A stretch of 64,000 nt of DNA from an uncultured Prevotella sp. (lineage in GTDB: Bacteria; Bacteroidota; Bacteroidia; Bacteroidales; Bacteroidaceae). A program made the translations under genes and the position numbers. This document shows, one piece after another, positions 1,003 to 59,041 of this stretch. The stretch lies in the NCBI GenBank assembly GCA_944320305.1, contig CALUGW010000002.1, positions 124,001 to 188,000 of the forward strand, given 5' to 3'. Under the pieces are notes generated by a model. The model was not told the origin of the DNA, did not search any database, and saw nothing but the letters and a program-made list of their open reading frames with translations. How positions within the stretch are numbered: the stretch's first letter is position 1; every line of letters starts with the position of its first letter.

Positions 1003-1389
1003 GCAAAAAAAACGTTTAAGTGTGTTAATCCAGGGTACTGACACGGCCTCCATTTTGCGCGTATTTGAAAACAATTTGCCCGTGGTCGCAAATTCGCGCG
1101 GCACAAGTGTGCAATCGTAACTTATTGATTTTATACGACTTATAAGCCTCATAAGACCTATTGTGCAATAAAACAAGCCCCCGAAACAGTGCTTCTCTGC
1201 CACAAAACGGCATTTTTCAGGCTGCAAAAGCACCCTTCCCGGCTTCCAATATGGCCTATATCGCTGCGCGATACGGGTCTTTTCGCACTGCGATATGGGT
1301 CTTTTTGCAAAACGAGACGCTTTTTACTGCTGTTTCAGAGGATAGAGACAGACTTCCCGATTCTATTCCGCCGCCCATGGTCGTGTTAA
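1003..1389 (-). repeat. 388 bp intergenic element, full copy 1
   Basis: This fills most of the 544 bp gap between the Rpn-like gene and the MATE gene. Read on the minus strand it starts TTAACAC at 1389, then carries GGCC-centred palindromic units (about 1240-1320), a TTTCGGGGGCTTG block, a TTGCACAATAGGTC block followed by direct TTATAAG-type repeats, and an AT-rich tail. The same blocks occur in the same order and spacing at 16979-17367 and 58653-59041. No protein gene is credible here, although two reading frames stay open on the plus strand in all copies. Function unknown. Confidence 0.85.
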
Positions 1390-1407
1390 ATCAGACGGCA
1401 CGGAATG

Positions 1408-8887: not shown

Positions 8888-8979
8888 CAGACACTACTTT
8901 TATCCTTGTTCTTATAAGATTATTTAACTCTTGGCAACCCACACAGCCTGTTTCACATAACCACCTGATTCACAACAAG

Positions 8980-9080
8980 TTGCAAGACAGGCCGTTTTAG
9001 TCTGCAATATAGGCCATATTGGAGCGCGATATAGGCCATTTCGCAATGCGATATAGGCCATTTCGCAAACCAATACGGCA
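8980..9080 (-). repeat. Short copy of the GGCC-palindrome element in the thiG-thiS spacer
   Basis: Three or four successive units of the form GCGATATAGGCCATTTCGCA lie between thiG and thiS. Each is an imperfect palindrome centred on GGCC. The flanking blocks of the 388 bp element are absent or very diverged. Confidence 0.75.
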
Positions 9081-9122
9081 GGTGGCGCATTCAGGCATGG
9101 CTGCGGGCGTGCGGCTTTAACG

Positions 9123-9896: not shown

Positions 9897-9984
9897 TTTC
9901 TCCTTATTTAATATATACGGCGCAAATAAGGGGTGCTGCCTGCGATATAGGCCGCGTGCCTTCCGGACTTGCAAAAAGCAACAT

Positions 9985-10075
9985 TGGCATTGTCGGTTCC
10001 CTCCGTCGGCATTATCCGAATCAGGTCTTACGGGTATGATCTCAGCCCGGGCAACAGCCCGAGCACCCCTGCCGG
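9985..10075 (-). ncRNA. TPP riboswitch (thi-box)
   Basis: Read on the minus strand, the conserved core is complete: GGGGTGC, then CTGAGA, ACCC, GACCTGATTCGGATAATGCC and GGAGGGAA. This is the thiamine pyrophosphate aptamer, which shuts off thi gene expression when TPP binds. It lies about 90 bp before thiG, inside the leader that starts at the promoter box at 10116-10123. No clear terminator follows, so control may be at translation of thiG; that part is inference. Confidence 0.95.
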
Positions 10076-10115
10076 CCCCGAGGGCCGGACTGTGCGCACT
10101 TTTGTTTTGCAACTG

Positions 10116-16966: not shown

Positions 16967-16978
16967 CCATTCCGATTT

Positions 16979-17367
16979 TTAACACTTCCGGACCGCGCGA
17001 AATAGAATCCAGAAAGCGTCTAAGCCCGCCTTCGGCGGTCCGAAAAGCCGTCCGATTTTGCAAAACCACCCATATCGCAACGCGAAATGACCCATATCGC
17101 AACGCGATATAGGCCATATCGGAAGCCAAGAAGGGTGGTCTCGCAGCCCCAAAACCGCCGTTTTGGGACTGAAAAAGGACGTTTCGGGGGCTGGTTTCAT
17201 TGCACAATAGGTCTTATGAGGCTTATAAGTCCTATAAGGCCAAACAGTTACGATTGCACACCCGTGCCGCGCGTATTTGCCGCCAGATGCTTTTTATTTT
17301 CAAATTCGCGAAATTTGAGAGGGCAAAGAGCACCGTTTTTTAACTTTTGCAAATAAACACTAACATG
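16979..17367 (+). repeat. 388 bp intergenic element, full copy 2
   Basis: This fills most of the 604 bp gap between the kinase and the flippase. Blocks in order: TTAACAC, CGAAATAGAA, two to three GGCC/GACC-centred units (CCCATATCGCAACGCGA, GCGATATAGGCCATATCG), GTTTCGGGGGCTGG, TTGCACAATAGGTC, TTATGAGGCTTATAAGTCC, GTTACGATTGCACAC, and an AT-rich end. Same order as copies 1 and 3. The rest of the gap holds the flippase promoter. Confidence 0.88.
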
Positions 17368-29454: not shown

Positions 29455-29632
29455 TTAACATTTTTAAGTTAAAAAGAACCGGCGAGGCCGTCCGGCGCAA
29501 CACTCTGACTGTCAGCACGTTGCAACATGGGTCTTTTTGCCGTGCGAAACAGGCCATATTGCAGCGCAAAACCACCCTTTTTGCATTGCAATATGGCCCT
29601 TTTCGCAAACCGTTTCGGCAGGTGTGTTAAAA
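29455..29632 (+). repeat. Short copy of the GGCC-palindrome element
   Basis: It begins TTAACA like the full copies and carries units such as AACAGGCCATATTGCAGCGC and TTGCAATATGGCCCTTTTCGCA. The later blocks of the full element are missing. With the foldback at 28945-29403 it accounts for most of the 919 bp gap before the YitT gene. Confidence 0.7.
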
Positions 29633-29761
29633 CGGCCTTGCTCCGCCGCCGCTTTAGTTGCGTATTTTCAAGTAACGGAGCCTGCGGCATTTCATATTAT
29701 TAATTAGCCGCCGTGCGCACTCATTTTCGCGTCTTTCTTTTGTCCATATAAAAAAAAAGGA

Positions 29762-40116: not shown

Positions 40117-40204
40117 TAACTTTTTTCCGAATCAGCACGCTACGGAGCGGTTAAAATAGCCTTTCGCCCATGCGGCGGCGACCCCAGAAAAGCCGCCCGA
40201 ATCT

Positions 40205-40390
40205 TTAACAAATGCTAAAAAGAGCCGTCCTCAAGACACCACCTGCCGTTTTGTATTGCGAAACAGGCCATATTGGAGCGCAAAAAGGCCTGTTTCGGCC
40301 TGCGAAAAGGGTCATTTCGCAAGCCAAAACAGGCCATATCGCAAACCGCTGGGAATCAGACCGTTATGCAAGCAGTCCAAATTCCGCGCG
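40205..40390 (+). repeat. Short copy of the GGCC-palindrome element
   Basis: It begins TTAACA and carries GCGAAACAGGCCATATTGGA, GCAAAAAGGCCTGTTTCG and AAAACAGGCCATATCGCA units. It occupies much of the 397 bp gap between fumarase and the flavodoxin-like gene. Confidence 0.75.
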
Positions 40391-48657: not shown

Positions 48658-48797
48658 TTAACACCGGCCAGCGGCCCACCCCGCCCCATACAGACCATAC
48701 CGCGCTGCAATATGGGTCATTTTGATTTGCGATATGGGCCGTTTCGGACTGCGGAACGACCTTTTTCAGGAGGCAAAACAGGCCGTTTTGATTCGTA
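48658..48797 (+). repeat. Short copy of the GGCC-palindrome element
   Basis: It starts TTAACAC and carries GCAATATGGGTCATTTTG, GCGATATGGGCCGTTTCGG and AAACAGGCCGTTTTG units. It occupies part of the 597 bp gap before hflX; the remainder shows only the hflX promoter. Confidence 0.72.
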
Positions 48798-49054
48798 GCA
48801 AAGGCATATGATTTGACAACAAAGTGTTATATCAACCCGCACTCCATTCGCAATCTGAAACAAAACACATCCGCTCCGCTTACGATTTTCGGCAAGTCTT
48901 TTCGCGGCAGAGACCCATGGCGGAGGCCGGACGAGTGCGCCGGAATGCAAATTTTCTTTAAAACGGCGGTAAGGTCAATGGCAGTCATATGGCGCGGCAG
49001 CCCACGCCCGGCATACGCCGCAGAGGCACGGGAGGCTCATTTTCCACGGCAGGA

Positions 49055-58614: not shown

Positions 58615-58652
58615 CTTTCTTGTTCTTATTCTGGCTCCAGCACGCCCGGAAA

Positions 58653-59041
58653 TTAACACTTCAAAAAGTGGTGAAATAGAAAAGCGCAGGCCGCTTTTGC
58701 CCCGGTTTTTGGCCAAAAACAGCGCCCGATTCTGCAATATGGCCCATATCGCAAGGCGAAAAGGGCCTTTTCGCAAAGCAATATAGGCCATATCAGAAGG
58801 TGAAACGCCCCCTTTTGCAGGGCAAAAAAGGCCGTTTTCTGGCTGAAAACAGCCATTCCGGGGGCTGAAAAAGTTGCACACCCGGACTAATATGGCCAAT
58901 AAGTCTAAGTAGGCCAATCAGTTACGGTCGCACACTCAGGACCGGCGTATTTCCGGCAAAAGCGTTTTCATTTTCAAATACGCGGAAATTCAGCCTCAAA
59001 CCGATGTCTGTTTTTAACCATTGCAAAATATTCCTAACATC
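58653..59041 (+). repeat. 388 bp intergenic element, full copy 3
   Basis: Same block order as copies 1 and 2: TTAACAC, GAAATAGAA, GCAATATGGCCCATATCGCA and GCAATATAGGCCATATCAG units, CCGGGGGCTG, TTGCACACC, a shortened AATAAGTC region, GTTACGGTCGCACAC, CAAATACGCGGAAATT and an AT-rich end. Together with two family C copies it fills the 962 bp gap before the acyltransferase. Confidence 0.85.

Follow-up and report, generated by a model that had tools for sequence, protein, structure and literature searches.

REP/BIME sequences and REPINs are abundant extragenic palindromes that occur partly in regular arrays, and REPINs accompany a Y1 (RAYT) transposase. The repeat closest to the element studied here, PINSR of Prevotella intermedia, is presented in the available part of its account as a 188-bp dispersed intergenic repeat that is held to be non-coding and numbers 177 copies in one strain and 184 in another (PMC4755523). 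According to the same part, PINSR lacks terminal inverted repeats, the two strains share roughly three quarters of its regions, copies lie at some inversion and translocation ends, and the repeat is reported to be confined to one clade, P. intermedia/nigrescens; its function was left open by the authors in 2015 (PMC4755523). BrickBuilt of Porphyromonas gingivalis is described, in the accessible portion of its publication, as an intergenic MITE found in few species and composed of a leader, 23-nt tandem repeats and a tail, its 19 copies being 84 to 991 nt long depending on repeat number and having terminal inverted repeats like those of the IS5 family (PMC4596501).

The present element was found in a window, the whole stretch of 64,000 nucleotides that was analysed, from the genome of an uncultured Prevotella sp. 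(G000). Like PINSR, as far as the available part of that account goes, it is high-copy, intergenic and non-coding, but it is about 389 bp long and has head and tail modules where PINSR measures 188 bp; a shorter sister family is nearer in size. Unlike the clade-confined PINSR of that account, it has relatives beyond one clade: the profile R1 (sequence-only, 389 positions, built from 30 copies of the window genome including the three in the window) had matches, with an E-value limit of 0.001, in 70 of the 150 genus members scanned, its own genome among them, many of these matches being to the array alone and at most nine candidates being scored per genome. Even spacing, described below, has no mention in the part of the PINSR account available, and it is not significant in the third genome studied, which is P. 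intermedia-like (G108). The short repeat of that genome, whose 2.7 Mb lie on two contigs, shares the 22-bp period of the window element and is probably PINSR, judging from genome layout and rough density rather than from comparison of letters. The window element looks like a longer, composite relative of PINSR, the latter again compared by description and not by letters. The original prediction, which had been made from the letters of the window, stated that the element matches no nameable feature class; going by the accessible part of the account, it is of the PINSR kind (PMC4755523), and the literature search found nothing nearer. With BrickBuilt, as described in the portion available, it shares the intergenic position and the layout of leader, repeats and tail, but differs in its period of 22 nt, its nearly fixed length and the absence of visible IS5-like ends. 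From REPINs it is distinguished by the 22-bp tandem array units and by a Y1 transposase search without matches in four genomes.

Copies and modules of the long element

All three copies in the window were recovered by R1 with E-values of 2.2e-79 or better. They align almost without gaps over 389 columns, the mean column identity being 81%, and chance similarity as their source is ruled out by the scores of 261 to 294 bits. The three full copies of the original prediction are thus real, their coordinates were correct to within 6 bases, and the block order was also right; that they might be chance partial similarities is further contradicted by the presence of at least 87 distinct copies in the same genome.

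The BLAST search of the genome (2.72 Mb, 41 contigs) listed 78 matches, all of at least 71% identity (40 of 158 candidates scored), and in the scan with R1 150 of 901 candidates were scored. The figure of 87 copies of the approximately 390-base (389-column) element is a lower bound, as the copy rule demanded more than 70 bits and more than 200 model positions spanned, so that fragments under 200 positions are excluded by definition; four likely copies that were fetched (L116, L117, L118 and L120) fell below it. Shared flanks were found in none of the pairs. Both ends are reached by 79 of the 87 copies, while eight fall short. Among the 79 full-length copies, 35 are exactly as long as the model and 71 deviate from its length by at most 1 nt, even though their mean pairwise identity is 0.66 (approximately 34% divergence), the closest pair being 0.93 identical and the median for the nearest neighbour 0.74. 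The copies are diverged, yet contain few insertions or deletions, with a possible bias from the training of R1 on the best-scoring copies and the omission of short fragments. Length kept despite divergence had been noted already from the three copies in the window, whereas the number of copies, the array with its 22-bp units, the existence of a shorter family and the regularity of spacing had not.

The copies are intergenic with a single exception. When the surrounding genes were called by codon usage, one of the 87 copies overlapped a weak ORF of 43 codons, and two reached 6 or 7 nt into the end of a neighbour. The strands of the two neighbours were (+,+) in 26 cases, (-,+) in 26, (+,-) in 15 and (-,-) in 15, the remaining five copies having a single neighbour. 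This mixture rules out a leader of genes on one side. A strand-specific replication signal is likewise ruled out by the orientation relative to GC skew, positive in 42 of 87 copies and thus without preference. The Pfam domains in the neighbours of the window copies were PDDEXK_2, MatE, HisKA/HATPase_c, Cupin_2 and Acyl_transf_3, one of the six proteins having no match.

The head (TTTAACACTTC...GAAATAGAA) is followed by an array whose palindromic units measure 22 bp, then by a linker with GTTACGATTGCACAC as its end and by a tail with a CGCG palindrome (Table 1). The start of the element at TTTAACACTTC is sharp; its end comes after TTTTTAAC, and 3' ends of at least two kinds exist. By inspection, a TTAAC word at both ends was the only candidate for terminal inverted repeats. 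Self-match within the array, averaged over the copies of the window genome, was 0.57 for a lag of 22 and 0.53 for a lag of 44, compared with 0.26 overall. The linker block is either TTATAAG or TAATTAG, with two-sided changes at two of its eight pairs (helix 2), and the tail palindrome has the form CGCG(T/A)ATTTG...CAAAT(T/A)CGCG. In the three hairpins, which were chosen after inspection of the alignment, 85.6% of the cells are paired. Cells changed on both sides numbered 57 against 33.6 in shuffled alignments (0 of 500 as high), a count that kinship among the copies can inflate, while the number of pairs with two-sided changes, nine, was below the shuffled mean of 11.5.

Table 1. Positions in the window of the long copies, of the modules of the copy described and of the short array sites.
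Feature	Position	Strand	Support
Full-length element, described copy	16978..17361	+	293.6 bits to R1, model 2-385 of 389
Head module TTTAACACTTC...GAAATAGAA	16978..17007	+	conservation begins sharply in 79 copies; its 20 letters, split by a 10-nt gap, recur in other Prevotella-group genomes
Array, palindromic 22-bp units of the GCGAAAnGGCCnTTTCGC type	17056..17193	+	lag-22 self-match; pairing in 85.3% of the cells of hairpin 1
Linker: TTGCACA, TTATAAG-type block, GTTACGATTGCACAC	17200..17261	+	conserved alignment columns
Tail palindrome CGCGTATTTG ... CAAATTCGCG	17270..17310	+	helix 3, 84.0% of cells paired
3' end block TTTTTTAAC	17336..17344	+	seen in aligned copies
Full-length element	58652..59036	+	280.4 bits to R1
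Full-length element	1008..1390	-	260.9 bits to R1
Short array site	8933..9101		64.3 bits, model 49-216
Short array site	29456..29662		50.3 and 44.8 bits on two strands
Short array site	40185..40381		47.0 and 27.2 bits
Short array site	48675..48811		57.5 and 45.4 bits

Two minor features of the ends were also seen. An extended tail palindrome (CGCGTATTTGC...GCAAATACGCGATTCTCGC) is present in copies L102 and L107, and the consensus tail in a second, related species (G082) is alike. At the other end, at least three CTCC-type words (heptamer-like GTCTCCY repeats) lie within the 45 nt directly 5' of 25 of the 79 full-length copies, for example L010, L019 and L025, compared with 6 of 1580 random windows.

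The shorter family and spacing along the chromosome

The shorter sister family consists of sites, roughly 100 to 150 bp long, that match R1 in the array alone, without head and tail and mostly on both strands. Four such sites, missed by the original prediction, raise the total in the window to seven, separated by intervals of 7.9 to 12.5 kb. In most of eight short sites inspected in the second species a linker of the form GCAAC..TGA..GTTA comes after the array, and at locus L305 of the MAG HAN021 a single element combines the head, the repeats, a linker like this one and the CGCG tail. Read by inspection of these sequences, the long form would be the head plus the short form plus the tail. A TPP riboswitch (Rfam RF00059, 61.3 bits) lies at 9981-10080 on the minus strand of the window, approximately 0.9 kb from the short site at 8933-9101.

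Spacing was tested on contiguous or fetched sequence, since the genome-wide search drops near neighbours (in G108, sites at about 92.7, 106.3 and 182.7 kb were missed). For the window genome the sample was a contiguous 434 kb, or 16% of the genome, composed of positions 1-210 kb of contig C1 and of contig C2, to which the window belongs. It contains 32 sites, 12 long and 20 short, each of them in a predicted gap; two that were counted as short (C1 24.6 kb and C2 64.9 kb) match more of R1 and may be diverged long copies. With both families pooled, neighbours are on average 12.4 kb and at minimum 6.4 kb apart. The coefficient of variation (CV) of the spacing was 0.33, compared with 0.93 when sites were placed at random (0 of 3000), and none of the 30 intervals was under 4 kb where 7.8 were expected. 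Random choice among the intergenic gaps did not reproduce this evenness either, with 0 of 2000 draws for either of two gap limits. The 1.5-kb flanks of 86 copies of the same genome (249 kb in total) contained no further site above 20 bits, the expectation at one site per 12.4 kb being about 20. CTCC arrays, sought by pattern in C1 and C2 as a control repeat from the same genome, were not found with that pattern, so that the spacing was judged against random placements alone.

The sample of the second species was 1.145 Mb, under half of its genome, with 44 long and 120 short sites, six of the 164 outside predicted gaps. Mean spacing was 6.9 kb with a CV of 0.44 against 0.95 for random placement, and 15 of 151 intervals were under 4 kb compared with 67 expected. 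In the P. intermedia-like genome, of which 400 kb (15%) with 40 sites was tested, spacing was not significantly even (CV 0.81 compared with 0.97, p-value 0.11; nine of 39 intervals under 4 kb compared with 12.9 expected, p-value 0.08), and comparison with choice limited to gaps gave p-values of 0.20 and 0.04. The distance between sites thus differs by species, being 12.4, 6.9 and 10.0 kb in G000, G082 and G108, respectively, and the spacing is even in the stretches from two of the three species examined.

Long and short sites also avoid each other. None of the 12 long copies in the sample from the window genome has a short site within 4 kb, compared with 4.5 expected (p-value 0.006), and in the second species this is the case for six of 44 long copies compared with 27 expected (0 of 3000). 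As the two forms keep apart, the array that they share is the probable spaced unit.

The reading preferred here, with a probability of roughly 0.4, is that the element is one form of a family of intergenic palindromic-array repeats and works as a row of sites to which a dimeric DNA-binding protein would bind, and which would mark or anchor chromosome segments of about 7 to 12 kb. A unit period of 22 bp is close to two helical turns, so that successive units would face the same way, and a dimeric DNA-binding protein would read the array. Selection would keep one site per segment, and exchange among the copies would keep them alike within a species while the species drift apart. A role in organising the chromosome may be inferred. 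In its favour are the even spacing, the kept length, the two-sided changes in hairpin cells and the sites retained at gene pairs shared with the second species; the spacing in G108, the differing densities, the turnover of sites between species and the lack of orientation preference with GC skew speak against it. More doubtful is the wider generalisation that Prevotella has a lattice of 22-bp-array sites every 7 to 12 kb, with long and short forms interchangeable, which would constitute a new type of punctuation, organising the chromosome and recognised by a protein.

Dispersed intergenic repeats are usually regarded as random debris. Mutual avoidance over kilobases, together with kept length and the exclusion between long and short forms, would make this a rare case where spacing points to function or to insertion immunity, and selection or long-term mobility, the two options named at the outset in the original prediction, remain the right pair. 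If functional, the sites would form a ready list for testing chromosome organisation in a common gut and oral genus, and the element offers a testable purpose for PINSR.

Mobility, gene order and RNA as alternative explanations

The main rival, a distinct possibility, is a selfish, non-autonomous repeat of the PINSR kind whose mobilising enzyme would avoid existing copies (target immunity); the sites would then be evenly spaced although the host gains nothing from them, and such immunity accounts for the spacing almost as well as the preferred reading does. The high copy number, the lack of a fixed orientation to genes and the precedent of PINSR, as given in the available part of its account (PMC4755523), all agree with it. 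So do the species-specific sequence and the turnover of sites between species. Only two of 30 copies in the second species have both flanking genes in common with one of the 87 copies of the window genome, and of the 94 kept gene pairs that lack a site in the window genome nine have a short array in the second species, which together indicate that sites come and go between species. When eight of these nine filled and empty pairs were inspected, however, a clean insertion was seen in none, which counts against a selfish repeat.

The traces of transposition point in the same direction. The 79 copies did not show an overall excess of target-site duplications (longest shared flank word 4.51 compared with 4.31-4.50 in shuffled flanks), only small excesses at single offsets among the many tested, for example four 5-mers against 0.9. 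Target duplication being not clear, the selfish repeat loses support, and a MITE with target duplication is ruled out. The Y1 transposase PF01797 was matched in none of four genomes (G000, G082 at 80% complete, G108 and G157) while five of 14 control genomes were positive, which also stands against a selfish repeat and excludes a REPIN driven by a RAYT. The exact head pattern had zero matches in viral contigs, where nothing else was scanned for, and BLAST zero matches in plasmids and phages at E up to 0.01; a phage or plasmid passenger is thereby ruled out, and the selfish explanation is again disfavoured. A recent burst of copies is not seen either, as a single pair exceeds 90% identity and the nearest neighbours are at the median of 0.74 given above. 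Truncation is likewise scarce for a selfish repeat, with the eight of 87 copies that do not reach both ends, although fragments under 200 positions do not enter this count by definition.

A recombination-prone repeat, at whose copies gene order breaks and whose even spacing would come from the sizes of the surviving segments, is improbable, although gene order gives it some support. Of the 79 gaps with long copies in the window genome, both flanking genes could be mapped in the 1.145 Mb of the second species for 16, four pairs being kept and 12 broken, and one gene for 27. Element-free gaps of 150-300 bp had 13 pairs kept and one broken (ten with one gene mapped), and the difference is significant (Fisher p-value 0.0002). 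Up to 150 bp, 80 element-free gaps were kept, two broken and 18 had one gene mapped. Over 300 bp, one was kept, two were broken and ten had one gene mapped, so gap size confounds the effect, the larger element-free gaps being poorly kept as well. Seen from the second species, the effect is absent for short arrays, with nine kept, one broken and ten with one gene mapped; for long copies the corresponding numbers were one, zero and two. The mapping was based on best hits in a partial genome, which may be paralogues. Moreover, the relative orientation of the genes was retained in eight of nine breaks within one contig, unlike in simple inversions. All four kept gene pairs that span a long copy in the window genome have a site also in the second species, three of them long and one short.

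Exchange between copies is nevertheless indicated, and it agrees with recombination as does the report, in the accessible part of the PINSR account, of copies at some rearrangement ends (PMC4755523). Distances between copies calculated from the 5' halves and from the 3' halves correlate at 0.47, compared with 0.74 for random splits, as expected if copies exchange parts. Mean identity of copies was 0.65 within the window genome, 0.61 within the second species and 0.51 between them, and two cross-species pairs at shared sites, with 0.53 and 0.52, were hardly closer than other pairs. Likeness within species together with low identity at shared sites suggests that copies are homogenised within species or replaced.

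A structured non-coding or cis-regulatory RNA is very improbable: the window copy folds better than shuffled sequences as RNA on both strands (z -3.8 and -5.1), but palindromic arrays do so anyway and this one folds also as DNA (z -2.9), the consensus fold is weak (RNAalifold -6.4 kcal/mol over 397 columns), and orientation to genes is not fixed. Rfam searches gave no family at the gathering score at the window copies and none inside the element of L001 at E up to 5, which rules out a known Rfam RNA and contradicts the possibility, allowed for originally, that the element is an annotated RNA.

Relatives in other genomes

The search of related genomes proposed in the original prediction found relatives in other Prevotella genomes. 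In 151 genomes drawn from the family, R1 matched six, namely its own genome, three others belonging to that genus and two from a different one, the last with weak matches. The exact head pattern was present in 26 stretches of named genomes, in a collection from which the records of the window genome itself are possibly absent: eight in MAG E24_bin252, six in MAG BRZ_QA bin92, four in MAG HAN021, three each in Prevotella sp. MGM1 and Segatella maculosa, and one each in Hoylesella pleuritidis and an uncultured bacterium. Profiles matched all the head stretches of E24_bin252 (8/8) and BRZ_QA bin92 (6/6), and weakly or partially those of Prevotella sp. MGM1 (3/3) and Segatella maculosa (3/3). No profile matches were obtained to the head stretches of HAN021 (0/4), the uncultured bacterium CASDPF (0/1) and Hoylesella pleuritidis (0/1), where the exact head pattern occurs; in HAN021 the layout of the element is visible by eye in two stretches.

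With the DNA query, matches of about 30 bp were found in four of 59 other genomes, nine of the ten in the TATAAG block and several of them simple repeats. In the second species, 30 copies extrapolated to the ends of the model were 398-400 nt long in 23 cases and 421-423 nt, or approximately one extra unit, in four, the remaining ones being 411 nt (one copy) and 389 nt (two copies). Two long copies in the P. intermedia-like genome, L137 and L189, are nearly identical together with their flanks, apart from small indels, and lie near the two ends of a 1.97-Mb contig; they are perhaps an uncollapsed overlap of the contig ends. In other genomes of the genus (L036, L037, L039 and L040), arrays of TCTTATAGG-type repeats of 9-10 bp are present near gene ends and resemble the TTATAAG block of the element.
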